From Eubacteriales bacterium (GTDB taxonomy: Bacteria > Bacillota > Clostridia > Lachnospirales > Lachnospiraceae), in the NCBI GenBank assembly GCA_030539395.1, contig JAUNSC010000002.1, positions 135,598 through 199,597 on the forward strand: DNA of 64,000 nt, read 5' to 3'. The notes beneath the pieces are model-generated. The model was not told where the DNA came from. It made no database searches and was given only the letters and a program-made list of their open reading frames with translations. A program made the translations under genes and the position numbers. Positions 8,609-59,886 of the stretch are shown here, piece after piece; the first letter of the stretch is position 1; every line of letters begins with the position of its first letter.

Positions 8609-8612
8609 ATCA

Positions 8613-39352: not shown

Positions 39353-40381
39353 TTAATCGTCTTCCTGATTGCCGGGTCTGAAACGGCTGGAGACAGAAAA
39401 CAGTGCTTCCAGACTGATATCCTCCGGCATCATTTCTTCCTCTTTGCCTCTGTCCTTTATGCTGTCAGATATCCCTCTCCCGGCAAAGTTTTCCCCCGCT
39501 TTCTTTCCAGCGGTCAGTTTCACCGCATCATAATCTGCAGCCTGCCGTTCCTCTTCCGGTTTCCGTTCCTCTTTAGGCACTTTCTTTTTGCCGATGGCAT
39601 CCACAGCCTGCCGGAAAGTTCTTTCTGTCAGGCGCAGTCTGCCTGTCTCCACAGCCTTCCGAAAACCTTCGGGAGTTTTAAACACTGTCAACCCCTTTTT
39701 CCTGAGAAGCGCTGACACACAAAGCCTGATCTGCTCCAGCTGACCGTAACACAAACCTTCTGTCAGCTCAGCCATTCTTATAAAAGACAGTGTTTCCGGC
39801 TCTCCCATCACATTCTCCCAACAATCCCTGAAATATTCCGTTCGGTCTGTTTTGTCCGGAAGAGAGAAAGAACAAATCTGAAATATCCGTCTCAGATAAG
39901 GTGACAGTTCCTCTTCCTTCTCTGTAAGAGCCGCAACTACCACAGGTAAATCCCTGTCCCTGACGTGCTCCAGCCCCCTCGCAAGCTCTAACCAGGCCGC
40001 CTCCTCTTTCAGACTTTCCAGCGCCTGCAGCATCAAAAATACGGGATCTCCCCGGAAAAGTTCCTCCAACAGCCCCGAAATCCTCCGAATCGTTTCATTC
40101 TGAGTCTCTCCCTGCAAATCAGCCCCGTAAAGACGCAGAAAACGGTATCCCTGCTCCCCCAGTTCTCCCGCAAAAGCTCTGGTCAGATAAGTTTTTCCGT
40201 ATCCTGCCCCACCCGTCAGCAAAAAAAGCCAGGTTTTGGGAAGTACCATCCATTCCTCCAACTCAGAATCAGGGCAGCAGCCCTGAAACACTGTCTTCCA
40301 TGGCTCCTGCCCTGTAACCATTGCCAGATTCATATCCGGAATTTCCTGGTAAAACTCATCAGCTCTCCATATCTGCTCCAT
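39353..40381 (-). CDS. Degenerate P-loop ATPase paired with the Vps4-like AAA protein
   Basis: This is a 342-residue protein whose specific family I do not recognise. Walker A is intact (LLTGGAGYGKTYLTRAF, about residues 54-70). The Walker B position reads PVFLMLQALESL, without the acidic DE pair, and no clear sensor or arginine-finger motifs follow. The helical region around residues 175-260 resembles an AAA lid. The last 80 residues are charged and low in complexity, and end with EALFSVSSRFRPGN. It starts 5 bp after the Vps4-like gene, so the two are cotranscribed. It may bind but not hydrolyse ATP, as an accessory or regulatory partner (inference). It is the last gene of the accessory cluster. 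No convincing terminator follows. Confidence 0.65.
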   Translation of the reverse strand: MEQIWRADEFYQEIPDMNLAMVTGQEPWKTVFQGCCPDSELEEWMVLPKTWLFLLTGGAGYGKTYLTRAFAGELGEQGYRFLRLYGADLQGETQNETIRRISGLLEELFRGDPVFLMLQALESLKEEAAWLELARGLEHVRDRDLPVVVAALTEKEEELSPYLRRIFQICSFSLPDKTDRTEYFRDCWENVMGEPETLSFIRMAELTEGLCYGQLEQIRLCVSALLRKKGLTVFKTPEGFRKAVETGRLRLTERTFRQAVDAIGKKKVPKEERKPEEERQAADYDAVKLTAGKKAGENFAGRGISDSIKDRGKEEEMMPEDISLEALFSVSSRFRPGNQEDD

Positions 40382-40386
40382 CTCGT

Positions 40387-41655
40387 TTATTCCTCCATCC
40401 CCTTCTTATATCTGGCTTCCCATTCATCCAACGCTTTCAAAATATCGTCCTTCGGTGTAGGCAGACATTCTCTCTTTGCCGCCTCAAAGATATCCCGGGT
40501 AATACAAAATCTCCCGGTCTTCAGCGCCTCCACAGCATCGTCCTCATTTCCGTATTCCTTCATCACAGCCTTTACCACCATTTCTTTCATCCGGTTGCAA
40601 AGGCGCTCCAGATCCCGATAATTATACTTTTCCGTCTCTCTGGCCATATCCCCCGAACTGATATCCTCTGCCATCTGAATCATATTATCAAAATGATGTT
40701 CCAGAGAATACTGTCTGGCCTCCGCATCCGGCAGAGGCACACGAATCAGCTCCACTCTGTCCAGCATCGCATTGTCTACCTGCTCCGGATAATTGGTGGC
40801 GCCTATGAACACAATCTTTTTATCCGAAGAATTAATCCGGTTATAGCCGGTGAGAAAGGCCGTGGTCAATGAAGCCGCATAATTAGGCAGATTTGGCAGG
40901 GAGCGGTTTTTGCACACTCCATCGATTTCATCAATAAATACAATACAGGGTTCATTGGCTTCTGCCGCCTCAAACAGGCCGTTTACAATTTTTTCAGCCT
41001 CTCCCACATATTTACTCAGAATATCAGAGCCTACCAGAGACAGATATTTATAATTTTTCCCCATCAATTCATGAGCAAAAGCCTCGATTACGTAGGTCTT
41101 GCCGCAGCCCGGCGGCCCGATAAAGAAGAACGAATGAAGGTTTTTCATTTTCAGATAGCTTTTCAATCTGGACACTTTCACATCCGTAACACACTCCTGA
41201 AGCTGTTCTTTCAGTGCTGCCATTCCTGAAACATCCGCAAAGGAATGGCGGGGTGTTTCTTTCAGCCACTGGGATGTTTCCTCTGATTTTTCCGCCTGCT
41301 GCGAAGACGGGGCCGAGGTTTTTTTCTCCCCCACAGACTGTGAATCGCTGTTCTTTTGGAGTGTGCCTCCTGCCTTTTTCTCCGCATATCGCCGGAATGC
41401 ATCAGGATTTAAACGCCTGGCCGCATCCTCGATTTTCCGGTTCAGTTCCTGCAGCCTCCTCTGATAGTATAACCGTTCCTCGCCGGTACTCATATTCGCC
41501 ATTTCCGAACAACGGAAAGCCGCCGCCTGAAGCATTGCACAGGCCTCCCGGTTATACTGTCCTCCGTTGGCAATCCGTTCATCCTCCGCTTTTCTTAAAT
41601 ATTCCTGACAGAGATTTTCGTTCCTCAGCATTGTTCTTACATAATTATCTTCCAT
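40387..41655 (-). CDS. AAA ATPase of the Vps4/katanin/spastin type with a MIT-like N-terminus
   Basis: Residues 1-92 form a helical, charged region (YLRKAEDERIANGGQYNREA, then YYQRRLQELNRKIEDA) with the three-helix spacing of a MIT domain. A low-complexity linker runs from 93 to 134. The AAA module follows: FADVSGMAALKEQL at its start, Walker A GPPGCGKT (180-187), a KYVGEAEK pore loop (215-222), Walker B IVFIDE (238-243) and sensor 1 GATN (285-288). The region SDILSKYVGEAEKIV matches the meiotic-clade AAA pattern, as does the C-terminal helix DIFEAAKRECLPTPKDDI followed by a W-x-x-Y segment. One arginine (R300) stands at the finger position, where Vps4 has two. These ATPases thread or disassemble helical polymers such as ESCRT-III or microtubules; the partner here may be the next upstream gene product (inference). 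Confidence 0.82.
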   Translation of the reverse strand: MEDNYVRTMLRNENLCQEYLRKAEDERIANGGQYNREACAMLQAAAFRCSEMANMSTGEERLYYQRRLQELNRKIEDAARRLNPDAFRRYAEKKAGGTLQKNSDSQSVGEKKTSAPSSQQAEKSEETSQWLKETPRHSFADVSGMAALKEQLQECVTDVKVSRLKSYLKMKNLHSFFFIGPPGCGKTYVIEAFAHELMGKNYKYLSLVGSDILSKYVGEAEKIVNGLFEAAEANEPCIVFIDEIDGVCKNRSLPNLPNYAASLTTAFLTGYNRINSSDKKIVFIGATNYPEQVDNAMLDRVELIRVPLPDAEARQYSLEHHFDNMIQMAEDISSGDMARETEKYNYRDLERLCNRMKEMVVKAVMKEYGNEDDAVEALKTGRFCITRDIFEAAKRECLPTPKDDILKALDEWEARYKKGMEE

Positions 41656-41676
41656 AAAGCCCTTCTTCCTGCCGAT

Positions 41677-42408
41677 TTATAAGCTGTCAATCAATTCCTT
41701 CAGGCTGTCCATATCCACCGGTCCGTTTTCTTCCGGCCCGATATACTCCTCAGAACCGCCATTGATGATCCTGTTTGCATCACCAAAAAGTTTCATCATA
41801 TCTTCCGGCTGTGTGGTAATCCCTGCTCTTCCTTCGAGACAATCCTCTATATCTTCTCCGTTAATCAGCTTCTCGATCAGTTCCACCGATACCAGACCTT
41901 CCACCCCGGTATTCTTCGCATCCTCACCGGACAGGCTCTCTTCCAGAGTACTCAGCCTGCCCAGTGTCTTTATCAGATCAGCGCTGACACCGCCGGAAGC
42001 GCCATCCATTCTCTTCATTCCATCCATTACCTTTTTGGGGTTCATTTTTCCCACTTTTCCGGACAGGCCATTGATCGCTGCCAATGCTTCCCCCATCTCT
42101 GTCATACAATTATACAGGGCTCTTGTAGAAGAGAGTTCCTGCATCCGCTCCTGAGCCTTTTTTACCAGAAGAATGGAATAGTAGGCAATACCGATCCTGG
42201 AATAATTATCCTGATTCTTTATTCCCTTTCTCTGGTTGGCCCGGGCAATCATCAGCTCTTTCTGGAGAATCAGACTGTAATCATCATTCAGCCTGCGCAG
42301 CTTCCTGTCTGCATCCAGCACTGCCGTATCAATGGCTGCCGCCTTTTTCCGTTTTTCCTGCTTTGGATCCTTTTTTTCCCGATTTTTTAACAATCCTTCA
42401 AATATCAT
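41677..42408 (-). CDS. Small helical protein resembling an ESCRT-III subunit
   Basis: No family is certain. The 243 residues begin with a very basic segment (LLKNREKKDPKQEKRKK) and two long helices (about 28-60 and 67-115) joined by a short KNQD turn. A helix follows with the pattern MGEALAAINGLSGKVGKMN then KKVMDGMKRM (residues 105-134). The C-terminal half is acidic and ends with DSLKELIDSL. ESCRT-III/CHMP proteins have the same order: basic hairpin of similar length, a methionine-rich MG..M...L...N..K segment, an acidic regulatory half and a C-terminal MIM motif with leucines at comparable spacing (L, I, L at 1, 5, 8). It lacks the arginine usual in MIM1. The gene precedes the Vps4-like ATPase by 21 bp. 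This is inference; a generic coiled-coil protein remains possible. Confidence 0.5.
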   Translation of the reverse strand: MIFEGLLKNREKKDPKQEKRKKAAAIDTAVLDADRKLRRLNDDYSLILQKELMIARANQRKGIKNQDNYSRIGIAYYSILLVKKAQERMQELSSTRALYNCMTEMGEALAAINGLSGKVGKMNPKKVMDGMKRMDGASGGVSADLIKTLGRLSTLEESLSGEDAKNTGVEGLVSVELIEKLINGEDIEDCLEGRAGITTQPEDMMKLFGDANRIINGGSEEYIGPEENGPVDMDSLKELIDSL

Positions 42409-42447: not shown

Positions 42448-43557
42448 CTAATTAGAAAGCATTTCTGATTCCTGCTCCTGTGTTTCCTGCAATTTTCTCT
42501 GCATGGCCTCTGCTCTGGCTTTCTCCTGCTTTTTCAATTCTTTCTGCAGCTTTGTGAATTCTATTTCATTTTTTATCATACGGTCCAGTTCCTTAGATGA
42601 GGTAAACAGGGAATCCAAAAGCGACTGGAAATCCGCCGATGCTTCCCGGAGGCGGTCAATTTCTCTTTCCCCCTCAAGAAGCTCCTTCTCAAACAGTTCC
42701 TGCAATGCCAGTACCTCATCCACCAGCTTTTCATCCAGAGCTACCGCAGATTCCTCCAGCTGAAGTGTCAGATTCCTTACATTTTCCTCACATTCCGCCA
42801 GACGCTGTCTGGCCTTTGCTTTCATGGCCTTGATATTCTCAATATTCTTATAGAGGCTGACAACCTTTCCCTTCTGAGTGTTCAGTTCCTTTGCGACGGC
42901 GCTGATTCTCGCCCTGGAAATCAGACCTTCCTCCACCGCATTTTCCAGTTCAGGATATTCGCTCCAGCTCGCTTCCAATTGCTCATAGGCATTCTTATAT
43001 GCCTCTTCTCTGGCCTTTTGCTGCGCCTCATACTGGAGGATTTCTTCTTTCAGCTCATCCGCCTGGCTGCGGAACGTCGCCAGGGCCAGCATATATCGGG
43101 TCTGCATCTCCCGTTTGTTCAGAATCTTCTGCTCCTCCTCTTTGCTGTTACAGCGGATATCAGAGCGAAATTCCATGATACAGGTTCCAATATCTCCGCA
43201 GATCAATACGGCCGTTTCCTCTTTCTCTTTTTCCAGAGCATTGCGAAGCAATGTCACCATCTTTACAATATTTTCATCAATCTTTGTGGTGTCCAGTACG
43301 GAAGTATGCGCCTGCTCCAGCACTTTTTTATACCCCTCAATCAACCGGCTGATCTGCTGCAGCTTTTCCTCCCCTATCATATCCGTTCTGCTGACGCATC
43401 TTATTAATTCCAGCTCATTCAAAATATCCTGACCGCCTCCCCGATGAAGGCCGGCCATTCTTTTCATCTCCTCAAGGTCATTGCCGGAATTGTCCTTTCC
43501 CGTCTGTATTCCCACCAGCTCCTTAAGAATATCCAGTTTTTTTCTTCGAACCGCCAT
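42448..43557 (-). CDS. Long coiled-coil protein of unknown function
   Basis: I do not recognise this 369-residue protein. It is almost wholly helical and charged, with heptad-rich stretches around residues 140-200 and 225-360 (for example LEKELLEGEREIDRLREA-like segments) and a glutamine-rich end. Residues 1-110 are less regular (ILKELVGIQTGKDNSGND, VLDTTKIDENIVKM). No signal peptide or membrane helix is seen, so it is probably cytosolic. A GGAGG site precedes the ATG. It lies between the small membrane protein and the ESCRT-III-like protein and could be a scaffold or a further polymer-forming subunit (inference). Confidence 0.6.
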   Translation of the reverse strand: MAVRRKKLDILKELVGIQTGKDNSGNDLEEMKRMAGLHRGGGQDILNELELIRCVSRTDMIGEEKLQQISRLIEGYKKVLEQAHTSVLDTTKIDENIVKMVTLLRNALEKEKEETAVLICGDIGTCIMEFRSDIRCNSKEEEQKILNKREMQTRYMLALATFRSQADELKEEILQYEAQQKAREEAYKNAYEQLEASWSEYPELENAVEEGLISRARISAVAKELNTQKGKVVSLYKNIENIKAMKAKARQRLAECEENVRNLTLQLEESAVALDEKLVDEVLALQELFEKELLEGEREIDRLREASADFQSLLDSLFTSSKELDRMIKNEIEFTKLQKELKKQEKARAEAMQRKLQETQEQESEMLSN

Positions 43558-43583: not shown

Positions 43584-44084
43584 CTATTGTTCCGTCGGTT
43601 TTCCAAAAATCCGCACAAAAATCCACATCAGTACCGCTATCATCAGCGATGGAATAAAATTCAGGATCACTGCCACTCCCAAAAAAACAAAAAACTCCAT
43701 CATGGAATAAAAAACCTCTGCCTCCGGAGCTGCTGCCGCTGCCAGGATATGAATCCCCGCAATATAATACCCGATTACCGCCATCACTCCTGAGGCCGCC
43801 ACCGTCAGCTGTACATGCCGTAAAATGTTCTCTTCATATCGGAAATAAAGGATCCGGACAATGCTTCCCAAAAGTGTCAGGATAATCACAACCGATTCCG
43901 CAATCAGTATCCGTCTGATCTGTGCATCCCTGGCCGTCAGCAGATACCCCCAGGCAAAAAGCCCGATGAAAAACAGAACAACTCCAAGGACACAAAAAAA
44001 ACCATTGTACACAGTCCAGGCCATTCCCAGCTTATCCAGGACACTGTACGGCTCTTCTGCCTTTTTCTTTTTCCACTTGACCAT
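43584..44084 (-). CDS. Small four-helix membrane protein of unknown function
   Basis: The 166 residues begin MVKWKKKKAEEP, a basic cytoplasmic start, and contain four hydrophobic helices at about residues 25-50, 58-80, 90-115 and 125-158. The last reads VAVILNFIPSLMIAVLMWIFV. Between helices 2 and 3 lies a short charged loop (YFRYEENILRH). No catalytic motif is visible. An AGGAGG site lies 6 bases before the ATG. It is the only multi-spanning membrane protein of the cluster and may tether the soluble ATPases and coiled coils to the membrane (inference). Confidence 0.65.
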   Translation of the reverse strand: MVKWKKKKAEEPYSVLDKLGMAWTVYNGFFCVLGVVLFFIGLFAWGYLLTARDAQIRRILIAESVVIILTLLGSIVRILYFRYEENILRHVQLTVAASGVMAVIGYYIAGIHILAAAAAPEAEVFYSMMEFFVFLGVAVILNFIPSLMIAVLMWIFVRIFGKPTEQ

Positions 44085-44098
44085 CCATTTCCTCCTTC

Positions 44099-44614
44099 TC
44101 AGAAGACATTATCTGCCGAAAGAGAAATCCGCTCTGATCTGGCATAATTCTCCTTCTCACCCACTACAATGCAAAAGCTTATCCCATCCTCGGGCAAAAC
44201 TCCGATTTTCCACAGACTCTTCGTTTTCGACGCTGTCATGGAAATCTCTTTCTGAACCTTTTTTTCATTTACCTCAATCAAAACCTTCAGAACAAAATTT
44301 TCTCCCTCATCAATACCGGCAAAGCTCTGCTCAGACCATGAGATTTCTCCCTTGTCCAGATCCAGATACCGTTCTGCCAATACTGTCATAAATTTCTCCC
44401 GCAGCTTCAGATTACTCTCCTGAATCTCATAGCTGTAGGAAGTCACACTTATTTTCGCATTCCCGAAATATTTTTCCTGATAATCCCGGACCATTTTCTG
44501 AATTTCGTCCTGGGCCTGCTCACCGCCCACAGTTCTCAGCATGGGAAATCCGCATTGCGGACAGCGGCTCAAAGCGGCATTCAGATTTTCCTTTCCGCAG
44601 ACATAGCATTTCAT
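44099..44614 (-). CDS. Zinc-ribbon protein of unknown function
   Basis: The product begins MKCYVCGKENLNAALSRCPQCG, a two-CxxC zinc ribbon, and continues with about 140 residues of predicted helix and beta strands (ISVTSYSYEIQ, FVLKVLIEVNEKKVQKEISM, ISFCIVVGEKENY). The alternating pattern in the second half suggests a beta-sandwich binding domain. ATG 44614 is chosen; it overlaps the stop of the preceding coiled-coil gene by four bases (ATGA) and has GGGAGG upstream, while a longer frame from 44662 lies wholly within that gene. Function is not known. Confidence 0.65.
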   Translation of the reverse strand: MKCYVCGKENLNAALSRCPQCGFPMLRTVGGEQAQDEIQKMVRDYQEKYFGNAKISVTSYSYEIQESNLKLREKFMTVLAERYLDLDKGEISWSEQSFAGIDEGENFVLKVLIEVNEKKVQKEISMTASKTKSLWKIGVLPEDGISFCIVVGEKENYARSERISLSADNVF

Positions 44615-45423
44615 TTCACATATCCTCCCTTTTCTGTGAGCTTTATCAATTCCCTGTAGCAATCTTCCTCTTCCGCCAGTTCCCTTTTCATCTGCTCCGC
44701 ACGGCTTTCCATCTCCCGCCGCAAATCTTTCACAAAGTTATTATCCATCTCCCAGGATTCTTCCAGTACCTTATCCCGGCTGTATGTTTTCCAAAGTCCG
44801 GCCAAAAATTCCGCTTTCTTTTTCAGTTCCCTCTGACCGCTTTCCAGATCTGCCAAAGCGTACGCCAGTTCCTCCTGCCGCTTTTGATCCTCCTGAAGCT
44901 GTGCCTCATACTCCCTGGTTTTCTGTGCCATCTGTTCCTCACGGTTTCCGGCTGCCTCAGCCAGTTCCCGTTCCTGCCTGACAATCTGCCGATACTGCTC
45001 ACAAGCCACCCGATTCCGTTCTTCCGCCTGAGCCAGCATCCTTTGGGCCTCTGCTTTCTTTTTCTCCCATTCCTGAATCTGCTGCTCACATTCCAAACGC
45101 TCTTTTTCCTTTTCTTCCGTCTCCTGAAGCATTACACGGGCCTTTTCCATCCGCTCTCTGGCACGCTCCAGCCTTTCTTCATAAGCCGGAATCCCCAGCT
45201 CGGCCTGATTTTTTTCAAACAACCGCGCCAGCATACGGGCCATCCAGCACAGTCTGCTCACCGCTTCTTCCGGTTCACCCACCGGCTGCTGTTCCAGAAC
45301 AGCGCCATTTTCTGATTTTACATCTTCATACAGGTCATAGAATACATCCAAAGCATCCTGCATGGTAATGCCTTCTTTTTGTTCAATTAATTGAAGCGTC
45401 TCATACACCCTGTCAAAACGCAA
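44611..45423 (-). CDS. Coiled-coil protein of unknown function
   Basis: This is a protein of about 270 residues. Residues 1-80 look globular and helical (VYETLQLIEQKEGITMQDAL and a WMARMLARLF segment). From about residue 85 to 265 it is a continuous charged coiled coil rich in glutamate, glutamine and arginine (EKEKERLECEQQIQEWEKKKA). The start is uncertain: TTG 45423 is spaced correctly from GAGGTG, whereas GTG 45432 overlaps that site. No membrane or secretion signal is present. It lies between the Hsp70-like gene and the zinc-ribbon gene, with translational overlap to the latter. Confidence 0.6.
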   Translation of the reverse strand: MRFDRVYETLQLIEQKEGITMQDALDVFYDLYEDVKSENGAVLEQQPVGEPEEAVSRLCWMARMLARLFEKNQAELGIPAYEERLERARERMEKARVMLQETEEKEKERLECEQQIQEWEKKKAEAQRMLAQAEERNRVACEQYRQIVRQERELAEAAGNREEQMAQKTREYEAQLQEDQKRQEELAYALADLESGQRELKKKAEFLAGLWKTYSRDKVLEESWEMDNNFVKDLRREMESRAEQMKRELAEEEDCYRELIKLTEKGGYVK

Positions 45424-45442
45424 TCCAATCACCTCTTCTCTG

Positions 45443-47131
45443 TCAGCTCTCCACCAGCTTTTCCACCCTTGTCAGGTCAAACAAATCACTGAATTTTGTC
45501 AGCTCAATCACATGATCCGTCTCTCCCGGCTGATCATTAAGCAGATCATATTCCCGGATATGAATACTGACCACCTCCGAAGAGTCCAGCGAGAATCCCA
45601 CATTGGCCGTCCGATACCGGTTTTCCACAACATTTTCCAGCTTCTGCTTAAATTCCTCCCTCAGCGGAACAATCAGCGCTGTCTTTTCCTCCCGCCCCAT
45701 ATTAATAATAAACTGGGATATGGCATTAGAAGCAATAAAAGTCACAATACAGCGGTTGTCTGCTTCGCTCTCCGGATAATAGGCCCGGTTATAATCTATT
45801 TCTTCCTTGTACCGAAAAGCATAATCAAAACAGGGATTTCCATCCATATCTCTCTGAAAAATTCCAATGGAGTAGGGCGCCGTCTGCCGGATACCCACAA
45901 TTCCGGAAGCCAGCAGCGCAGTTCCCAGAGAAATGGCTTTCTCACAGTCTGACTGGTTTTCAATGATATCCTCCCGGCGCCGGTCCTGAGAAATAAACTG
46001 AAAAGTATCAAACACCTGCTTTCTCACCAGATAATAATTGCCAAAGCCTCCCACCAGAGCAATCTTAAAATTATCCTGGATACGATTCCTGTAATCAATC
46101 CCATTTTCATTCATAAATGCAATCACTTCGCCCAGCTTCTCTGCAAAAACATCGCGGATCACTTCATTATAAACCTCAACCAGCAGGGCATATGTAATCT
46201 CCAGTTCCTCATCCCCAAACTCAATAGTAGTGAACTCGGTATCCAGCTCCTCAAGGTCATCTATCCCGCAGTCCTCAAACATGCTGTTGACAGCCTTCGT
46301 CCGGCTCTGAAGCTCCTCTTCCAGACTGTTTACTGCTTTCAGAAACTTTCCGTCAGTCTCTAAATCTTCCCCCTCCTGCAAAATGCCGTTTCTTCGCAAA
46401 GCTGTCTCAATCACACTCTCCATATAGACAATTCCGGCCTTACCGATACGACCCTCCACATTCTCGCCTGCCCCATTGCTCTCGATAATCTTCAGCTCCA
46501 TGGACTGCTGATCCTCGCTGCCGCCGGCTTCTACCTGAGCCAGACTGATATCCAGCGTTCCTCCGCCGTAATCTATCAAAAGAATATATCCCTCAAAGGG
46601 ATTTCCGGTCAGCTGCCGGAAATTATAAGAGAAGAACGCACAGGCCGCCGCAGGCTCACTGACCACCTGCACATGCTCAATCTCCATCATCTCTTTGCAA
46701 ATATCCCTTAAGATGCTTCTGCCGGCAATGGTCTTAATTTCCTTAAACCAGATTTCCGGCGCTCCTATCACCAGATTGTGGATGGTGGTCTCTCCGAAGC
46801 GGACCAGAATCTGCCGTAACAGATCATGAAGAAATTCCTCTGCCGCCGCCACAGGAGTAAAATCCTCTGAAAAACCTCTGGCTTCCAACTTCTGCAGGTC
46901 TGTCTCTGTCAAAAGCATTTTAAAGGCCCTGTATATGTCAACACCCTTTTTCCCCGTCCGGGCCTTCGCCGCCCGTCCAAATTCCAGCCTCTGCTTTTTA
47001 TCCCGGGATACCAGCGTCGGTATATAAGGCGAATCCTGACTTAAAGAAAGCGCCTCCAGCAAGTGGTTATCCTCACGGTACACCGATATGGTAGTATATG
47101 TACTCCCAAAATCAATCCCACAGTTCAGCAT
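45443..47131 (-). CDS. Hsp70/actin-fold ATPase without a canonical substrate-binding domain
   Basis: This is a 562-residue protein. The N-terminal half is an Hsp70-type ATPase: CGIDFGSTYTTIS (phosphate 1, residues 4-16), VIGAPEIWF, VVSEPAAACAFF (connect region), LLIDYGGGTLDIS (phosphate 2, residues 184-196) and ALVGGFGNYYLVRK (adenosine motif, about residue 357). The C-terminal part (EITYALLVEVYNEVIRD and IPLREEFKQKLENVVENRY-like segments) is helical then beta-like and does not match the DnaK peptide-binding domain or its EEVD/helical lid. It may bind a dedicated client. It starts 12 bp after the 629-residue gene and an AGGAG site precedes the ATG. Confidence 0.8.
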   Translation of the reverse strand: MLNCGIDFGSTYTTISVYREDNHLLEALSLSQDSPYIPTLVSRDKKQRLEFGRAAKARTGKKGVDIYRAFKMLLTETDLQKLEARGFSEDFTPVAAAEEFLHDLLRQILVRFGETTIHNLVIGAPEIWFKEIKTIAGRSILRDICKEMMEIEHVQVVSEPAAACAFFSYNFRQLTGNPFEGYILLIDYGGGTLDISLAQVEAGGSEDQQSMELKIIESNGAGENVEGRIGKAGIVYMESVIETALRRNGILQEGEDLETDGKFLKAVNSLEEELQSRTKAVNSMFEDCGIDDLEELDTEFTTIEFGDEELEITYALLVEVYNEVIRDVFAEKLGEVIAFMNENGIDYRNRIQDNFKIALVGGFGNYYLVRKQVFDTFQFISQDRRREDIIENQSDCEKAISLGTALLASGIVGIRQTAPYSIGIFQRDMDGNPCFDYAFRYKEEIDYNRAYYPESEADNRCIVTFIASNAISQFIINMGREEKTALIVPLREEFKQKLENVVENRYRTANVGFSLDSSEVVSIHIREYDLLNDQPGETDHVIELTKFSDLFDLTRVEKLVES

Positions 47132-47143
47132 TTCATTCCTCTC

Positions 47144-49033
47144 CTAATTGCACAAATTTTTTCTCTCATTTTCCATAATCTGAATAAATTCCAGATCCAT
47201 CTCCCGCTCTGCACCGGCATTTAAATTCTGTTCTGCTGCATTTTCCAGCGCTGACAGATTTTCGCTCTTCACTTCCTGAAGGCGTCTGGCAAACTCCGCT
47301 TCCAGCTCCAGGTTCCTTTTCATGGAATCACTGGCCTGCCCCAGTGCTTCATGAAATTTCTGCAGTTTTCTCTCGCCATACTCATCTATAAACAGTTCAA
47401 TCTCTCTCATTCCCTCACGAAGATGAAGAAGCGTCTGCCGCTTCTTGCCAATCAACTGGGCGAGGTAATTCTGCTGCCGATACAAATGCACTGCCTCGCT
47501 GCGGTCTGCATCTAACAAAAGCAGCTCTCCCGACACTCCTCCATGTTTCTTTCCGCTGGCCAGTTCCTCCAGCTCCTGCCGGTAACCCGGATTTTCCTCC
47601 TCATTTCTGCGGACCGCCTGCATCTTTTGTTCAAACCTCTTCTGACAGTCCCGCCTCCGCTCTTCCCAGTCATGAATCCGCCGTTCCATACGGTTCATCT
47701 CCACCGCTGCCTGAGCGATATTTCTATACCACTGAATCTTCTTTTCATATACTTCCCGCTGCAGCTTTTCCCTGCTGCAGATCCGGTATTCCACAAGATT
47801 TAAAATTTTCTCTATCGCTTCCAGATCTTCGTCCCGTTCCGGACTTAATCCCGCCAGCAGTTCCAGCCCTTCCTCAATTTCCTGCTGATTATCAACAGAA
47901 GTATCACTCCACGGCTTCTGGCTTTCCCTCACGATGAGCTCCGCTTTCCTGCGGATACGGTCGCTTTGTATTGAGGTGCCTTCCTGCTGCCCGGAAAAAT
48001 ATCTCTGCAGCCGTACTGCCGCCGCATTTTTCTTAAGGCCTGGCTGGCGTTCTTCCTGTATATAATAAATTCCTTTCAAAAGCCTTAGAAGAGAAAGATT
48101 CTCCCCCTCCTCTCCTTTCAGTGCAGCAATTTTCCGCCCCAAAGGCTCTCTGTTCCTGCTCTTTTCCAGATAACTCCTTACCTCCGAAAGTCTGCAATTT
48201 TCGCCCTCGGGCAAAAACCCCTTCCATTCTGCGGCAAAAGCATCACAATGGTACCAGACATATAAAAAATCTGCATAATCTTCCACCTCCGCAAGCGCCA
48301 GCCCTTTTCTTTCGATAAACGCCATATGGCAAAGCATTCTTTGAATATTCTCCCTGTTCAGGGCATCCCACACATGGTAACGCTTCTCCAGTTCCAGCTT
48401 CAGTTCCTCATAAACAAGCACCTTTCCTTCCTGAAACAGCCGCCGCAATTCCGGAAACAGTTCAGAATGAAAAATACCCTCCCGGTCTGTCAGGCACCCC
48501 AGACTCTCATCTGCCCGAAGACTTCCCACCAAAACAAGTATGCTTTTACACTGGGCCGTCTCTAAAACACTTTTTAGCCGCTGGCGATATTCCGGCTCCG
48601 CTCCCTCAAAAAGGCGGTAGAACGTCCGAACAGAAATAATAAAAACATTCTGCTCCTGCCGTTCTTCCATCATAAACAGAAGACGCATCAGCAATTCTTC
48701 CTTCTTTTTATGTAAAACGTGATAACTCTTTCTGCCGTTTTGAATCCTTTCCGTCACGTGAACTCCATTTTTCGTATAATGAATACCGAAAAAGCCCAAA
48801 ATATCCTTTTTTATCAGAGATGGGTATTCTTCCACGGACTTTGCGTCCTCCATTCTGACAAAAAATCCTTTTGGGCTTTCCTCAATATAAAAAATATTTC
48901 CATATCCTTCTTTTTTCAGGCAATAATACAGATACTGATCCAGACTCAGCCGCACCAGGCTATCGAGATAATATTCATCCTCATTTGCAAACAAAAAATG
49001 AATCACTCCGTCACTTCGTCCAAATCTTTCCAT
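47144..49033 (-). CDS. Large protein with an alpha/beta N-terminal half and a coiled-coil C-terminal half
   Basis: I do not recognise this 629-residue protein. The first 270 residues alternate strands and helices (VFIISVRTFYRLFEG, SILVLVGSLRADESLG, VLVYEELKLELEKRYHVWDAL) in a way that recalls an AAA or P-loop ATPase fold, but no Walker A lysine motif is present. Residues 430-625 are charged coiled coil (RRIHDWEERRRDCQKRFEQKMQ). It is soluble by appearance. AAGGA precedes the ATG. It is the first of the tight gene series that continues with the Hsp70-like protein. It may be a dead ATPase that acts as adaptor (inference). Confidence 0.6.
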   Translation of the reverse strand: MERFGRSDGVIHFLFANEDEYYLDSLVRLSLDQYLYYCLKKEGYGNIFYIEESPKGFFVRMEDAKSVEEYPSLIKKDILGFFGIHYTKNGVHVTERIQNGRKSYHVLHKKKEELLMRLLFMMEERQEQNVFIISVRTFYRLFEGAEPEYRQRLKSVLETAQCKSILVLVGSLRADESLGCLTDREGIFHSELFPELRRLFQEGKVLVYEELKLELEKRYHVWDALNRENIQRMLCHMAFIERKGLALAEVEDYADFLYVWYHCDAFAAEWKGFLPEGENCRLSEVRSYLEKSRNREPLGRKIAALKGEEGENLSLLRLLKGIYYIQEERQPGLKKNAAAVRLQRYFSGQQEGTSIQSDRIRRKAELIVRESQKPWSDTSVDNQQEIEEGLELLAGLSPERDEDLEAIEKILNLVEYRICSREKLQREVYEKKIQWYRNIAQAAVEMNRMERRIHDWEERRRDCQKRFEQKMQAVRRNEEENPGYRQELEELASGKKHGGVSGELLLLDADRSEAVHLYRQQNYLAQLIGKKRQTLLHLREGMREIELFIDEYGERKLQKFHEALGQASDSMKRNLELEAEFARRLQEVKSENLSALENAAEQNLNAGAEREMDLEFIQIMENERKNLCN

Positions 49034-49311: not shown

Positions 49312-52300
49312 CTAAAAATTTGCACCACAATTCTTTAACTGATCCGGATTTTCTGCAGACCAGCACATCCCGCTTTCTCCAACTACAAACACATATTTTT
49401 CCCCTTCCTGACGAATGACTGGAAATTCTCCATTACTTGCATGAATCACTCCAGAATCTTTGAACCCATCGGATATTCTTGTCCAATTCATGATCACATC
49501 ACCATCCCAATAGCCATTTAACAGATTTCCGCTATACATTACCTCATAATCACTATAATATCCATTGCTGCAATAAACTTCAAAATATCCATTCATTATG
49601 CCATTGTCCCATGTTCCTTTAAGCATTCGATAATAACGATAACGCGCAAAGTCAATCCCGGCGCAATAAAACATAATACCATTTCCATGCGGTTCTGAAT
49701 CCTTAAATTCTCCAAGATATACATTAACACCGCTGACGCGCATACCATAGCCCGAAGCAATTTCCTCCACAATTTTCCCATTTTGGTAAAAAAAAGCTCC
49801 CTCTAAATGGATAGGCGTATAGACTGGAATTTCTAAAGAGCTAAACAATCCTTCTCCGTCTTCAGCAGATATTTTTTCATACAGTTCATCCAGGAATTCT
49901 TTTATCTCATCTTCTGTCATCGCTTCGCCTGTCTCCTGTTCACTGCTATCTTCTGACATAATTTCCTGATCACCCAAATGTGCCAGCGAACTGGTATCGC
50001 TTATATTATTAGCTAAATCCAGATTTTTAAGGCCTGTTAAATTTTCCAACCAACTGACATCATTGATTTGATTACCGGACAAATACAGATTTTCAAGACT
50101 TGTCAGGTTTTCCAACCAGCTTACATCACTGATATCATTATCGCTCAAATCCAAAATTTTAAGGTTTGTCAGATTTTCCAACCAACTGATATCATTGATT
50201 TCATTATAATGCAAATTCAGTTCTTCAAGGCCTGTCAGATTTTCCAAACCACTGATATCATTAATACAATTATTTCCCAGATCCAAAATTTTAAGGTCTG
50301 TTAAATTTTCCAGTCCACTGATATATTGAAAAATACTGATATCATTATTGCTCAAATCCAGTTCTTCAAGGCCTGTCAGATTTTCCAATCCGCTGATATC
50401 GCTGATTTCATTCATACTCAAATTTAAAATTCTAAGATTGGCTATATCCCCCCATGCACTGATATTGCTGATTTTATTATTGCTCAAATCCAGTTGTTCA
50501 AGGCCCGTCAGACTTTCTAAATCACTGATTTCACGAATTTCATTATTGCTCAAATTTAAATTTCTAAGGTTGGCTAAATTTTTTATATCGGGATCGGTTG
50601 TTGATTTTTCCTCATTAACTTTATCTATTTTATTATAGCTCAAATCCAGTTGTTCAAGGCCTGTCAGATTTTCCAATCCGCTGATATTACCGATTTCATT
50701 ATAACTCAGATCCAGAATTTTAAGACTGGGCAAATTATATTCTACACGTAGTAAAGCATACAATTCATTATTATTTAAATTAAGTTCTTCAAGGCCTGTC
50801 ATATTTTCTAACCAGTCGATCCTATTGGATAGATGATTATAACTCAAATCAAGAATTTTAAGACTATTTAAATTCCTTTCTATATCCAAATCAAGTATTT
50901 CATTATGATACAAATTCAATTCTTCAAGACACGTTAAATCTTCCAACCAGCAGATATCGTCATAACTCCCCCAATTCAAATTATTCCAACCCAAATTCAG
51001 AATCTTAAGACTGGTCAAAGCCTTTTCCATACTTAAATTTTCTATTTCATTATGATTTAAACTCAGGATTCTGAGGCTGATCCAATTCCCTAATTCGCAT
51101 GTACCGCTGATTTTATTATAATTCAGATTTAACTCTCCAAGACTGGTCATGTTCTTCAACTTACTGATATCACTGATTTCATTACCGCTCAAATCCAGTC
51201 GTTCAAGGTCTGTCATATTCTTTAAGCTATTGATCTCACTGATTTCATTATTGCTCAAATTCAGTCTTTTAAGACCTGTCATATTCTTTAACCTGCTAAT
51301 ATTACTTATTTTGTTTTTACTCAGGTTCAGTTCTTCAAGCGCTGTCAAGCTCCCCAATGGGCTGATATCACTTATAGCCGTATTATAAAATCTTAATTCT
51401 TTAAGTTCACTCAGAGTACCTGTCGGTGCCAATTGATCCAACTTCCATCCGCTTATCTCCAATCTCTGAAGCTTTGGCAGCCACTTCAAATCCTCAAGGA
51501 GCAATGTGTCACTCAAATCATCTGCGCCTGTATTTATATCTTCTTCACCCTCTTCCTGATTTTCTGCTTCTGTAAACGGTTCTTCGTCTTCCTCCAGTTT
51601 CTCGCATAAAAACACATCATTGGCATTAATCCTCAGCACACATATATCTGCCAGTTCCTCTGCCAGAATATCACCCTCCGGCCGGTTTAAGCCAGTCCGA
51701 ATCAACTGTTCCATATTTGGGTCTGACCAGGTTACCACCTGTCCGGATTGTGAGTCAGCCATTTCTGTTTCAGTGCCATTGGCTTCTGTAATATTTTCGT
51801 CTTCTGACACCGGATTTCCATCCAGATAAATTTTTGCATTCTCCAAATTTTTCAGGGCACTGGTATCACTGATTTTATTATCTTTCAAATTCAATTGTTC
51901 AAGGCCGGATAAATTACCCAACACCGTCACATCACTGATATTGTTTTCATACAGCCATAAAAATTTCAGGCCGTTCAAATCCTTCAACATATCAATATTA
52001 CTGATATTATTTTTTCCTAATGACAAATTTTCAAGGTTAAATAAATATCTCAATGCACCAATGTCGCTGATATTATTGCCCTGCAGATATAGAGTCTTAA
52101 TATCTTTCAGATTTTCCAATGCATTAATATCACTGATATTATTTTCATTCAACCAAAGAGATTTAAGACCAGTTAATTTCCCCAGTATACTAATGTCCAC
52201 GATACCGCTATTAATCAATGCCAACTCTTCAAGTCCTGATAAGTGCTCCAATATGCTGATATCACTGATGTTACTGTCACTCAAAAACAGACTTTTCAGA

Positions 52301-53475
52301 CCTGACAAATTTTTCAATGGACTGATATCACTGACGTTGTTTTCCCGCAAATCCAATTTTTCGAGACCTGTTAAATTTTCCAATACAGTAATATCGCTGA
52401 TATTGTTCTTCTCCAGGTCCAAAATCTCAAGAGAAATCAGATTTTTCAAGGCGCCGATGTCACTAATAATATTATTATTCAAATACAATTGTCTAAGATC
52501 CGTCATGTTCCCCAAAGCATTAATGTCACTGATCTCCGTATCACACAATCTTAATTCGGTGAGTGCATTTAAAGCACCTGCCGGCCCCAGGTCACTCAGC
52601 TTCCATCCTCTTATTTCCAATCTCTGAAGTTTTGGCAGCCATTTCAAATCTCCAAGGGTCAATGTACCTTTCAAATCCTCTAAATCTGCAAACTCTTTTT
52701 CATCCTGCTCTATGTCTTCCTCTAAATTTTCACATAAAAACACGTCATTGGCATTAATCCTCAGCACACATATATCTGCCAGTTCCTCTGCCAGAATATC
52801 ACCCTCCGGCCGGTTTAAGCCAGTCCGAATCAACTGCTCCATGTCTGAGTCTGACCAGGTTACCACCTGACCGTTCTCCATATCCGCAGGTTTTTTTTCA
52901 GAGGAAAAGAAATATTGTCCTGCTATAATTCCTGCCAGCAACACCAGCAAAATAACAGCGCCCGCACAAAGAATCTTTCCAACCCCCTTCTTTCGTTCCC
53001 TGGTTGATGCAGTGGTATCAGAAGCCTTACGGTGAGACTGTACAGTTTCCGCATTTTTTTCGTTTGAACGGTCCTCTTTCTGGCTGTCATTCACCAAAAC
53101 AGCCTCCATTCTCACCAGAATATCCCATCCAATATCTTCCGTATGCTCCTGTACGCCATATTCTGCTACCCGGGCAGTATCCGGGCTACCTGTCTTCAGA
53201 GCCATCTGCGCAATCCTGGCCGTTTTATCATCTATCTTTTTTCTATAATAATCCCTCAGAGAAAAGCAAAAATCTGCCTCTTTCTGATTTGCGCTCTGTT
53301 TTTTCAATTTCTCCAGTTCCGTCTCTCCCGGCACGGTAATCACATACAGCAGCGCGGTCTCCATTCCTTCCTCTGATTTTCGCTGAAGTTCAAAGGTTCT
53401 CTTTTCTGCGTCCTCTCCAATTTTCCTTACAATCTCCCAGTCTTTAAATACTTTCTTTCCCACTGAATATTTCAT
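49312..53475 (-). CDS. Giant membrane protein: pseudokinase N-lobe, membrane helix, leucine-rich repeats, MORN repeats
   Basis: This is a 1387-residue protein. Residues 10-125 look like the N-lobe of a Ser/Thr kinase (DWEIVRKIGE, later DIGWDILVRMEAVL at the hinge), but the glycine loop reads GEDAEK, the ALKV lysine position is tyrosine (LLYVITVP), and no catalytic lobe follows. A polar linker leads to one membrane helix (about 167-190). Outside are two leucine-rich blocks (about residues 278-548 and 652-1158) of 22-residue units such as LENLTGLEELDLSNN-ISDIS, of the internalin/SDS22 type. Each block is preceded by a near-identical 47-residue module (QVVTWSD through VFLCE). The end, about 1238-1340, has MORN-like units (YLGEFKDSEPHGNGIMFY). 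ATG 53475 has AGGAG upstream. No wall-sorting motif is present. Confidence 0.8.
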   Translation of the reverse strand: MKYSVGKKVFKDWEIVRKIGEDAEKRTFELQRKSEEGMETALLYVITVPGETELEKLKKQSANQKEADFCFSLRDYYRKKIDDKTARIAQMALKTGSPDTARVAEYGVQEHTEDIGWDILVRMEAVLVNDSQKEDRSNEKNAETVQSHRKASDTTASTRERKKGVGKILCAGAVILLVLLAGIIAGQYFFSSEKKPADMENGQVVTWSDSDMEQLIRTGLNRPEGDILAEELADICVLRINANDVFLCENLEEDIEQDEKEFADLEDLKGTLTLGDLKWLPKLQRLEIRGWKLSDLGPAGALNALTELRLCDTEISDINALGNMTDLRQLYLNNNIISDIGALKNLISLEILDLEKNNISDITVLENLTGLEKLDLRENNVSDISPLKNLSGLKSLFLSDSNISDISILEHLSGLEELALINSGIVDISILGKLTGLKSLWLNENNISDINALENLKDIKTLYLQGNNISDIGALRYLFNLENLSLGKNNISNIDMLKDLNGLKFLWLYENNISDVTVLGNLSGLEQLNLKDNKISDTSALKNLENAKIYLDGNPVSEDENITEANGTETEMADSQSGQVVTWSDPNMEQLIRTGLNRPEGDILAEELADICVLRINANDVFLCEKLEEDEEPFTEAENQEEGEEDINTGADDLSDTLLLEDLKWLPKLQRLEISGWKLDQLAPTGTLSELKELRFYNTAISDISPLGSLTALEELNLSKNKISNISRLKNMTGLKRLNLSNNEISEINSLKNMTDLERLDLSGNEISDISKLKNMTSLGELNLNYNKISGTCELGNWISLRILSLNHNEIENLSMEKALTSLKILNLGWNNLNWGSYDDICWLEDLTCLEELNLYHNEILDLDIERNLNSLKILDLSYNHLSNRIDWLENMTGLEELNLNNNELYALLRVEYNLPSLKILDLSYNEIGNISGLENLTGLEQLDLSYNKIDKVNEEKSTTDPDIKNLANLRNLNLSNNEIREISDLESLTGLEQLDLSNNKISNISAWGDIANLRILNLSMNEISDISGLENLTGLEELDLSNNDISIFQYISGLENLTDLKILDLGNNCINDISGLENLTGLEELNLHYNEINDISWLENLTNLKILDLSDNDISDVSWLENLTSLENLYLSGNQINDVSWLENLTGLKNLDLANNISDTSSLAHLGDQEIMSEDSSEQETGEAMTEDEIKEFLDELYEKISAEDGEGLFSSLEIPVYTPIHLEGAFFYQNGKIVEEIASGYGMRVSGVNVYLGEFKDSEPHGNGIMFYCAGIDFARYRYYRMLKGTWDNGIMNGYFEVYCSNGYYSDYEVMYSGNLLNGYWDGDVIMNWTRISDGFKDSGVIHASNGEFPVIRQEGEKYVFVVGESGMCWSAENPDQLKNCGANF
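50000..51520 (-). repeat. Second leucine-rich repeat block in the LRR gene
   Basis: About twenty units of 66 bp (22 residues) with a consensus LxxLTxLExLxLxxNxISxIS, several nearly identical at DNA level. Some units are longer by two to six residues. Expansion or contraction by recombination is likely. Confidence 0.85.
51605..51745 (-). repeat. 141-bp module, copy 1, within the LRR gene
   Basis: Nearly identical to 52733-52873 (I count six to seven differences). It encodes the module from TWSD through NRPEGDILAEELADICVL to NDVFLC that precedes the second leucine-rich block. Confidence 0.9.
51830..52640 (-). repeat. First leucine-rich repeat block in the LRR gene
   Basis: About a dozen 22-residue units of the same consensus as the second block, encoding residues of roughly 278-548. 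DNA-level similarity between units is lower than in the second block. Confidence 0.8.
52733..52873 (-). repeat. 141-bp module, copy 2, within the LRR gene
   Basis: This is the partner of 51605-51745, 1128 bp away, and encodes the module that precedes the first leucine-rich block. The high identity points to recent duplication or gene conversion. Confidence 0.9.
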
Positions 53476-53597
53476 ATCTTCTCCTGCTGTATCTCTCTGC
53501 AAAATTGCGGCACATCCGGTTACAAATGCAAAAATCCTTTGATATACTCCACAGGAACTTCTATCCTGTGTATTCTAAGAGCATCGGATATCTTCCC

Positions 53598-53752: not shown

Positions 53753-55093
53753 TTATTCCCGCGTCAGCTTTCTGATCCAGTTCCCGTAATTTGCTTTTAA
53801 AAATGCCGGAACACATTTGAATATCTGATCTGCATTCAGACAGCAGACCACCACTGCCGGCGAGGCTTTCACCACAAATGCCATGTAAAAGGAAAGGGGT
53901 ATCACGATCAGCCAGATACTGATCAGATCCATCTTGACAACAAATCCCGCGCTTCCCCCTCCGCGGATAATGCCGTTGTTTGTGGGCATCTGATAGGACA
54001 TGCCCACACAGACTACACTTAGAATGATCAGAAATGTATTCGTCATCTCTTTTGTGGACTCGGCCAGCTGGTAAAAATTCAGAATCGGAATCCTGATAAA
54101 AAACAGAACAAGCCCCGACAAAATGCCGATTACAACAAACAGCTTCTGAAGGGCGGCTGCCTCTTTTTTCACCTCTTCCAGATTGCCTGTTCCAATGGTC
54201 TTTCCGATAATGATGGTTGCTGTGGATGCCGCTCCCACCGCCGCCGATTTCACCATCAAGAACAATGTGGAAGCCACACTGTTGGCCGCAATTGCCGCCG
54301 CTGTCATATGCCCCAGAATTACGGTCTGCATGGCAGTATTTAAACCCCACAGTCCCTGAATCAAAACCAGCGGAGTTGTCAGCTTCAAATAATCGCGGTT
54401 AAGTACCCTGTCTGTGTGAAGAAAGTCCTTCACTTTCAGATGCAGTTTTCTTTCACGAAGAGCGATAAACAGAAGCAGGACGAAAAACTCCAACATTCTG
54501 GCCGTAAGCGTTCCGATTGCCGCACCTGCTGTTCCCAGCTCCGGCGCTCCGAATTTTCCATAAATAAGTATGTAATTTATCCCGCAGTTTACAAAAAAGC
54601 TCTGCACCGATAAAAGAAATGCGATTTTCACAACCTCCACGCTTCGAAGAACAGCCAGCAAAATCTGAGTCAACGCAAAAAACAGGTATGTAAAACGGAT
54701 AATCTTTAAGTATTTTACGCCCTCTGCAATAATCGTCTGCTCTGTCGTAAAGAGTCCCAGTATCCGTGCTGGAAACAGACTGACCAGAAAAAACAACATC
54801 CCACAGACAATAAGTCCGGCCCGCATGGAAGCCGCTGCCAGCTTTTTCATCGGCTGTATCTGTTTTTTCCCCCAATACTGACTGCACAGTATCACCATTC
54901 CATCTCCCAGCGCCGTCAGGATCTGCTGATAAATAAACTGGACCTGATTGACTGCTGCCACTCCTGACAGCGCCACTTCACTGTATCCCCCGAGCATCAT
55001 ATTATCCGCCAGATTAACGCTTAAGGTCACCACATTCTGCAAAACCAGAACAATATAAATTGAAAAAAAGCGGCGGTAAAATTGTCTTCCCAT
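53753..55093 (-). CDS. MATE-family multidrug/metabolite exporter
   Basis: This is a 446-residue membrane transporter with about twelve hydrophobic helices in two homologous halves, exporting cationic or other small compounds with Na+ or H+. Family features are the N-terminal VTLSVNLADNMMLGGYSEVALSG and GDGMVILCSQYWGKK, and in the second half TAAAIAANSVASTLF and GAASTATIIIGKTIGTGN. The arrangement fits the MATE/MatE Pfam family; substrate is not predictable. An AAGGAG site precedes the ATG. It is a single-gene unit behind a promoter with repeated CCCGGTATG elements. No clear terminator follows before the LRR promoter. Confidence 0.92.
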   Translation of the reverse strand: MGRQFYRRFFSIYIVLVLQNVVTLSVNLADNMMLGGYSEVALSGVAAVNQVQFIYQQILTALGDGMVILCSQYWGKKQIQPMKKLAAASMRAGLIVCGMLFFLVSLFPARILGLFTTEQTIIAEGVKYLKIIRFTYLFFALTQILLAVLRSVEVVKIAFLLSVQSFFVNCGINYILIYGKFGAPELGTAGAAIGTLTARMLEFFVLLLFIALRERKLHLKVKDFLHTDRVLNRDYLKLTTPLVLIQGLWGLNTAMQTVILGHMTAAAIAANSVASTLFLMVKSAAVGAASTATIIIGKTIGTGNLEEVKKEAAALQKLFVVIGILSGLVLFFIRIPILNFYQLAESTKEMTNTFLIILSVVCVGMSYQMPTNNGIIRGGGSAGFVVKMDLISIWLIVIPLSFYMAFVVKASPAVVVCCLNADQIFKCVPAFLKANYGNWIRKLTRE

Positions 55094-55111
55094 CTTTTGT
55101 CTCCTTCAAAG

Positions 55112-55224
55112 CCCGGTATGTCTATCGGATTATTTTACGCATGTTTCACAACGCAAAATGCTCCCGGTATGTACGGCAGGAACATCTTGCATAGTCACCA
55201 GCCATATTATATCATACCGGGAGC
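55112..55224 (-). promoter_or_regulatory. Three copies of a CCCGGTATG element around the MATE promoter
   Basis: CCCGGTATG occurs on the plus strand at 55112-55120 and 55163-55171, and inverted at 55213-55221. The last two belong to a perfect 12-bp inverted repeat (55160-55171 and 55213-55224) with a 41-bp gap. The promoter-proximal arm lies inside the spacer between -35 and -10, so a protein bound there could repress or twist the promoter. The binding regulator is not encoded nearby. Confidence 0.65.
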
Positions 55225-55234
55225 CAAATATCAG
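55206..55234 (-). promoter_or_regulatory. MATE gene promoter
   Basis: On the minus strand CTGATA (55229-55234) and TATAAT (55206-55211) are 17 bases apart, about 110 bases before the MATE ATG. Confidence 0.65.
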
Positions 55235-55284
55235 TTTTTTTAATTTTTATACAAGTTCCGTTGACAATCATTGTACACTTATCC

Positions 55285-55315
55285 AAAAAAGCGGCATCGC
55301 ATTATGCGGTGCCGC
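55285..55315 (-). terminator. Terminator after the secreted protein gene
   Basis: On the minus strand GCGGCA pairs with TGCCGC, with an inner CGCA/TGCG pairing, and TTTTTT follows. It is a strong intrinsic terminator. Confidence 0.9.
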
Positions 55316-55348
55316 CTGGGTATTTCTATTCATTCCTGCCTTGATACT

Positions 55349-56059
55349 CTATCTGTAGAAAGATATATTGAGTGTTTTTACCACTTTTGTCTTAGAGTGT
55401 TTCAATGTAACGGTCAGCCATTCACTGCCATTTCTTACTTTAACGGTTCCGCCGTTTTTCACCTTCTTCGCCCTTTGGGGATCAGCGCCCTGCATAATCT
55501 TTGTTACTTTCCAGCCGCTGGCAGGTGTCACTTTAACTTTCAGATTCTGTGAATTGGACTTAAGTTTATAGTCATAGGACAAATTGCGGCAGTCATAATA
55601 ACTCAGTTTTATTTTGGAAGCCACATTTTTTCCTCCGATGGTCAGCTTCTTAATGGGTTTTTTGTACTTGTACACATGCAATGTCGTGCTGCAATGGTAT
55701 ACTTTGTCGCTGTTTCCAAGCTTCACATCAAACGTTACTTTCGTAGTCCCTGTCTTTTTCAATTTTAAGTAGGGTCCATAATAAAGCATGGATGCATGAT
55801 CCCCATTTTTAGAGGCAACTGCGATTTTGGTATTCTTCACTTTAACATTTGTATACTTTTCTGTATAATGGTATTTCTGGTATGCTTTCTTTAATGTGAC
55901 ATCGATCCGTACCTCATTGTTTTTGCGGTATTCCGCATACACATGTTTCGGATAAGTAAACGGCACCGTAGCAGCATCCGTCTTCACGCCTGGAATAAAC
56001 ACCAGCGCCATGAGCAGCAACATTAACATCTGCGGCAGTTTTTTCATCATCTTACTCAT
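55349..56059 (-). CDS. Secreted beta-rich protein of unknown function
   Basis: This is a 236-residue protein with a signal peptide (KKLPQMLMLLLMALVFIPG, cleavage probably after TDA). The mature part is basic, rich in lysine, tyrosine, valine and threonine, with alternating hydrophobic residues (VRIDVTLKKAYQKY, TTKVTFDVKLGN, GWKVTKIMQGA, WLTVTLKHSKTKVVKTLNISF), which suggests one or two Ig-like beta-sandwich domains. No lipobox or sorting signal is present. It is a single-gene unit with its own strong promoter and terminator between rpoC and the MATE gene. Function is not known. Confidence 0.75.
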   Translation of the reverse strand: MSKMMKKLPQMLMLLLMALVFIPGVKTDAATVPFTYPKHVYAEYRKNNEVRIDVTLKKAYQKYHYTEKYTNVKVKNTKIAVASKNGDHASMLYYGPYLKLKKTGTTKVTFDVKLGNSDKVYHCSTTLHVYKYKKPIKKLTIGGKNVASKIKLSYYDCRNLSYDYKLKSNSQNLKVKVTPASGWKVTKIMQGADPQRAKKVKNGGTVKVRNGSEWLTVTLKHSKTKVVKTLNISFYR

Positions 56060-56118
56060 CTTTTTACCTCCCTGATTCTGTTTTTTTCTCTTTCTCTATG
56101 GGCAATCTGCCCAATACC

Positions 56119-56148
56119 AGTATACCCTCTTCCGGAAATTTTTGTCAA
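56119..56148 (-). promoter_or_regulatory. Promoter of the secreted protein gene
   Basis: On the minus strand TTGACA (56143-56148) and TATACT (56119-56124) are 18 bases apart, immediately after the rpoC terminator. A GGGCA/TGCCC hairpin lies in the leader. Confidence 0.8.
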
Positions 56149-56149
56149 G

Positions 56150-56192
56150 AAAAAGGCAGCTCAGTCTCTGCATAAACTGAACTGCCTTTTTT
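56150..56192 (-). terminator. Terminator of the rpoB-rpoC operon
   Basis: On the minus strand AAGGCAG-TCAGT pairs with ACTGA-CTGCCTT with one mismatch, followed by TTTTTC. It starts 3 bp past the rpoC stop. Confidence 0.9.
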
Positions 56193-56194
56193 AT

Positions 56195-59872: not shown

Positions 59873-59886
59873 GAACTGGTTCCTCC

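Follow-up and report, generated by a model that had tools for sequence, protein, structure and literature searches.

A Snf7-like helical protein and a Vps4-like AAA ATPase in a rare bacterial gene run: candidate partners in an ESCRT-type machine

The gene run and its surroundings

The window analysed here, the whole stretch of 64,000 nucleotides, contains a close-packed run of nine genes on the minus strand, read from 49033 to 39353, with gaps of 5 to 39 bases and one overlap. The run starts with a 629-aa protein, followed by an Hsp70-like ATPase, a coiled coil, a zinc-ribbon-like protein, a small hydrophobic protein, and a second coiled coil (369 aa); the helical protein P0002 is third-last, the AAA ATPase P0001 second-last, and a second AAA-like protein closes it. 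The preliminary description of this DNA had singled out P0001 and P0002, and both open reading frames lie where it placed them, on the minus strand with 21 bases between them, a purine-rich ribosome-binding-like stretch standing ahead of each start. The features are given below, with relatives named by locus; seven loci were compared, namely the window and L015, L016, L017, L018, L019 and L020.

39353..40381, minus strand: second AAA-like protein of 342 aa, with Walker A but no intact DE pair in Walker B (Pfam AAA, E 4.9e-9)
40387..41655, minus strand: P0001, 422 aa, classic AAA ATPase with Vps4-like features (open reading frame and Pfam)
40393..40452, minus strand: C-terminal helix of P0001, residues 402-421, Vps4-type with a tryptophan (prediction and sequence)
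41380..41655, minus strand: helical N-terminal region of P0001, residues 1-92, a candidate for binding the partner (three predicted helices)
41677..42408, minus strand: P0002, 243 aa, Snf7/ESCRT-III-like helical protein (family-level match to an archaeal Snf7 profile)
41680..41709, minus strand: C-terminal DSLKELIDSL of P0002, residues 234-243, MIM-like candidate (sequence)
42064..42366, minus strand: predicted helical hairpin of P0002, residues 15-115 (AF2 model, mean pLDDT 61.7)
42448..43557, minus strand: coiled-coil protein, 369 aa (relatives at the same place in L015, L016, L017 and L020)
43584..44084, minus strand: small hydrophobic protein, 166 aa (relatives in L015, L016 and L017)
44099..44662, minus strand: CxxC..CxxC zinc-ribbon-like protein, up to 187 aa, start uncertain (sequence; relatives in L015 to L019)
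44611..45432, minus strand: coiled-coil protein, 273 aa (relatives in L015, L016, L017, L019 and L020)
45443..47131, minus strand: Hsp70-like ATPase, 562 aa (Pfam HSP70, 27.8 bits against a cut-off of 20.6)
47144..49033, minus strand: 629-aa protein with no Pfam match above cut-off (relatives in L015, L016, L017, L019 and L020)
49312..53502, minus strand: large leucine-rich-repeat (LRR) protein, 1396 aa, possible sensor, operon membership unsure (LRR_4, E 3.6e-109)

Relatives of the second AAA-like protein were matched by phmmer in L015, L017, L018 and L020; L019 has a protein in the same place without a phmmer match, and none was seen in L016. In an alignment of six members, none has kept an intact DE pair in Walker B, and two have ED instead. 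L017 carries an extra short AAA-like gene related to P0001 (11143-11691, 182 aa) after the ATPase, and a second, shorter gene like the 369-aa coiled coil (8308-9111) ahead of its P0002 relative.

The LRR gene precedes the run, with a gap of 278 bases to the next gene. Leucine-rich repeats are numerous in its product, which also matches MORN weakly; its N-terminus resembles, to our eye and without a Pfam match, what we take to be a protein-kinase remnant. Four of the seven loci (the window, L017, L018 and L020) have LRR, RCC1 or Sel1 genes next to the run; the RCC1-repeat protein of L020 (586-2367) and the Sel1-repeat protein of L017 (100-1092) occupy the position directly upstream of it that the LRR protein has in the window, which gives them the look of interchangeable repeat proteins. 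Upstream of the run in L018 (723-9242) lie three RCC1-repeat proteins and a second Hsp70-like gene (723-2429), the latter being the nearer one to the Hsp70-like protein of the window (780 bits against 286). Downstream of the run in the window are what we take, from gene content, to be murE, priA, def and fmt, while 53753-63738 holds a MATE-type transporter, then a small protein whose cadherin-like match is weak, and after these rpoC and rpoB.

Distribution and linkage of the gene pair

The system is rare. Searching with P0001 at E up to 1e-40, and scoring four candidates in each genome, recovered the ATPase from 6 of the 397 genomes in the window's family, its own included; an ATPase profile run across the class found 1 of 391 genomes, again its own, and P0002 used by itself picked out 2 of 250 and 1 of 246, own genome included. 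A contig scan returned L020, from Oscillospiraceae bacterium SIG505, as the sole whole-length ATPase match among the best 80 loci kept, the other matches listed being FtsH, Cdc48 and other AAA proteins. Neither the ATPase in the viral contigs scanned, nor P0002 in phages, nor the Hsp70-like protein in plasmids found a match.

Co-occurrence of the two genes, which the preliminary description had proposed to check, is strict: a P0002 relative stands directly upstream of the ATPase in all seven loci, and the pair is therefore more than chance. This relative was recognised by phmmer in five loci (the window, L015, L016, L017 and L020); in L018 and L019, which are divergent, it took a profile comparison to identify it (Prob 97.0). 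Two P0002-like paralogues follow one another in L016 and L020, and an Hsp70-like gene is present in 7/7 loci. PspA is absent from the window's own genome (94% complete) and lies above its cut-off in two of the seven carriers.

Relationships of P0002 and P0001

The charge split that had been claimed for P0002 was borne out, with a basic N-half (+10) and an acidic C-half (-14); the same arrangement is seen in 6/9 members of its family, 45/50 Snf7 proteins, 1/23 PspA proteins and 18/338 background proteins. DSLKELIDSL is indeed present at the C-terminus, and the relatives have, by eye, a hydrophobic C-terminal pattern. The reported MG..L...N..K segment is also there but reads MGEALAAINGLSGK, with the lysine five residues past the asparagine and not three. 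The AF2 model of P0002 (mean pLDDT 61.7) places helices at residues 15-60, 66-89 and 95-115, and in fold comparison the predicted hairpin fits BAR domains equally well as CdvB2 and Ist1; a Foldseek search has CdvB and Ist1 among its matches, none of them significant. The N-termini of the relatives of P0002 and of the 369-aa coiled coil (42448-43557) share, by eye, a short hydrophobic-then-basic stretch, as if both proteins were membrane- or partner-bound alike.

Single-sequence searches with P0002 against Pfam, NCBIfam, PADLOC and PDB sequences matched no known family, and a seven-sequence profile against PDB sequences gave coiled coils and other unrelated chains, ESCRT-III being absent. The relationship appears at the level of the family, which comprises nine proteins from the seven loci and was compared profile-to-profile with 50 archaeal Snf7 sequences. 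Here the alignment is colinear over about 160 columns and higher than all shuffles, with Prob 68.9 for a seven-member family, 82.3 for the nine-member one and 91.2 for the second paralogues; two PspA, as positive control, reached 85.4, and three coiled-coil families from the same run, as negative controls, 1.5-3.3. Real scores against the maxima of 40 shuffles each were 38.0/20.3, 37.4/21.8, 46.5/28.9 and 42.3/33.4, and one negative-control family, CC369, marginally exceeded its own shuffles (24.0 vs 23.7). When 64 families were ranked blind, the P0002 family came third (35.1) behind CdvB and PspA, with the next unrelated family at 25.8, and the signal persists using 46 Sifarchaeum-phylum sequences alone.

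Individual members carry much less. Against the Snf7 profile, P0002 alone does not rise above noise, ranking 27 against 600 background proteins; the same holds for the single L018 and L019 members, while one L016 paralogue (L016a) is slightly under one unrelated protein and the divergent L018 and L019 pair, taken as a profile, reaches a Prob of only 4.3. Hhalign with just four CdvB sequences found nothing, and since this small profile is too weak for the PspA control as well, the signal is detectable only with the larger profile. The curated Pfam Snf7 cut-off (27.3 bits) is reached by 0/9 members; it is not a defining feature, because the two PspA tested miss it too, Snf7 being absent from the families listed for either. 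Snf7 is second of three families listed for a consensus of five members (E 0.097, 12.8 bits), is not listed for the seven-member consensus, and has no match in the window's own genome at E up to 1. Membership of PspA was considered and rejected: the P0002 family gave Prob <=0.6 in five comparisons with a 23-sequence PspA profile, against 95.5 for Snf7 vs PspA. The preliminary description had read P0002 as ESCRT-III-like and had proposed profile comparison with ESCRT-III and PspA; the reading stands for the family, which matches archaeal Snf7, but P0002 alone is without signal and PspA is unmatched. Judged by sequence profiles, the P0002 family is a remote homologue of archaeal Snf7, and not detectably of PspA.

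P0001 has a single classic AAA core (Pfam AAA, E 1.2e-30). The pore-loop feature quoted for it, SDILSKYVGEAEK, is present, and S(K/R)(Y/F)VG(E/D)AEK is found in five of seven ATPase members, a loop that we take to be of the meiotic type. The helices proposed for its two ends are predicted as well, at low confidence (2-29, 36-55 and 60-82; 402-421). The C-terminal element of the family aligns by eye with that of Vps4, and a tryptophan occurs within the last 20 residues of 6/7 members and 28/28 Vps4, and in none of the 10 Cdc48 C-termini listed out of 18. The suggested MIT identity of the N-terminus, by contrast, found no support in sequence: compared with 28 Vps4 N-termini, those of the P0001 family gave Prob 1.7, with 9 of 80 shuffles equally high, and single members ranked 30-187 of 500, whereas the archaeal Vps4 control reached 98.3. 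The AF2 model of P0001, built from two sequences (mean pLDDT 51.6, AAA core badly modelled), is too poor for the N-terminal domain to be compared; fold comparison took in residues 165-400.

By profile, archaeal Cdc48 D2 (145.5 bits) and Vps4 (136.6) suit P0001 to nearly the same degree and FtsH (116.6) less well, and Cdc48 D2 is slightly ahead of Vps4 in 6/7 members. A tree of AAA proteins places the ATPase family in its own clade (100/100) on a long branch (2.05), outside Vps4+CdvC. What survives of the Vps4 assignment is the AAA core, the pore loop, the Vps4-type C-terminal helix and the strict linkage to an ESCRT-III-like gene; what does not is membership of the Vps4 clade and the best profile fit. 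We regard P0001 as Vps4-like in operation, not as a Vps4. Its PADLOC matches to the models of IetA and TRIP13 were discounted, being generic to AAA proteins.

A candidate ESCRT-type machine, its rivals and known systems

The P0001/P0002 pair is probably the core of a rare bacterial machine working like ESCRT-III and Vps4. The hydrophobic and basic N-terminus of P0002, together with its basic hairpin, would attach to the cell membrane on its inner face, and the protein would polymerise via the hairpin, leaving its acidic C-terminal tail exposed. The N-terminal helical domain of an ATPase hexamer may then grip this tail, in a contact of the MIT/MIM type, and pull P0002 subunits through the pore, so that the polymer would constrict or be recycled. 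The second AAA-like and the Hsp70-like proteins may tune the machine, and the repeat proteins (LRR, RCC1, Sel1) may sense its trigger. Its purpose would most likely be envelope or membrane repair, with vesicle formation or division as a possible one.

The neighbours of the pair are also compatible with a machine that serves soluble complexes as a chaperone or takes them apart. The Hsp70-like ATPase and the AAA protein would then remodel either a coiled-coil scaffold or assemblies of proteins, with the Snf7-like protein as an adaptor or a substrate that has lost its action on membranes. The constant Hsp70-like gene, the several coiled-coil genes of the run and the slightly better Cdc48 D2 fit would all suit it, but the Snf7 relation of the ATPase's neighbour, the Vps4-type C-terminal helix and the small hydrophobic protein found in the run in 4/7 loci speak against it, and we regard the soluble alternative as unlikely. 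Quite improbable, in turn, is that coiled-coil composition produces the Snf7 signal as an artefact, P0002 being an unrelated helical protein beside an AAA. The noise-level score of P0002 alone, the control that barely exceeded its own shuffles, the fold search that fails to discriminate and the empty result with four CdvB all point that way; against this, the coiled-coil families of the same run reach Prob only 1.5-3.3, the blind ranking of 64 families puts the P0002 family third and leaves a gap below it, the alignment is colinear over ~160 columns, and PspA, likewise a coiled coil, is not matched.

The least probable reading weighed here is a conflict or anti-phage system, where repeat proteins of variable type would detect an intruder, with the AAA and Hsp70-like ATPases serving as its switch. 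It would account for the rare distribution (6/397 family genomes), the repeat genes adjoining the run in 4/7 loci and the AAA-level matches to IetA and TRIP13. However, the remaining PADLOC matches are weak (ten proteins scanned, the window's LRR protein left out), no toxin or nuclease family was found in the run by Pfam, and P0002 and the Hsp70-like protein are unmatched in phages and plasmids, respectively.

Beyond the pair itself, the ESCRT-type reading can be extended, tentatively and at somewhat less than an even chance, to a bacterial ESCRT distinct from PspA, made of a Snf7-side polymer (sometimes of two paralogues), a dedicated Vps4-like ATPase and AAA-like and Hsp70-like partners, with interchangeable repeat sensors gating it. 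If so, it would represent either an old bacterial ESCRT-III lineage or an early archaeal transfer rebuilt into a new machine. If a Snf7-side protein and a Vps4-like ATPase are genetically linked in this way, ATP-driven ESCRT remodelling in bacteria would become testable; the tracing of ESCRT evolution would gain the P0002 family as a new branch, and the question would arise why an Hsp70-like ATPase belongs to the machine.

ESCRT-III proteins remodel membranes in archaea and eukaryotes; to our knowledge, their pairing with a recycling ATPase is usually thought absent from bacteria. The accessible parts of PMC7615534 describe a clear Vps4 as missing from bacteria, and those of PMC7618577 mention ESCRT-III-like proteins there. 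Pairs of ESCRT-III superfamily members and AAA proteins are, however, already reported in bacteria in the accessible part of PMC11237479, so the general idea is already in print: it proposes ATP-dependent membrane remodelling for bacterial PspA/Snf7-AAA operons, with PspA paired with a double AAA protein, bacterial Snf7 homologs beside AAA having a TM segment, and Vps4-like ATPases transferred to bacteria without Snf7. "Clostridi", "Lachno" and "Hsp70" do not occur in its main text, and the open-licence literature searched yielded no description of the nine-gene operon.

The run resembles the neighbourhoods of PMC11237479, in the part accessible, in having an ESCRT-III superfamily member with an AAA in a bacterial operon. 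Bacterial PspA/Vipp1 are helical hairpin proteins of the same superfamily and sometimes adjoin AAA ATPases (PMC11237479, same part), but 23 PspA gave no profile match to the P0002 family and only one of them has the charge split. Compared with archaeal Cdv/ESCRT (CdvB, Asgard Snf7 and CdvC/Vps4), the ATPase here falls outside the Vps4 clade and no MIT could be detected in it, the Snf7 relation is at profile level only, and the bacterial run adds Hsp70-like and second AAA-like genes; what both share is a Snf7-type protein, basic in its N-half and acidic in its C-half and sometimes present as two paralogues in a row (L016, L020), adjoining an AAA with a Vps4-type C-terminal helix.
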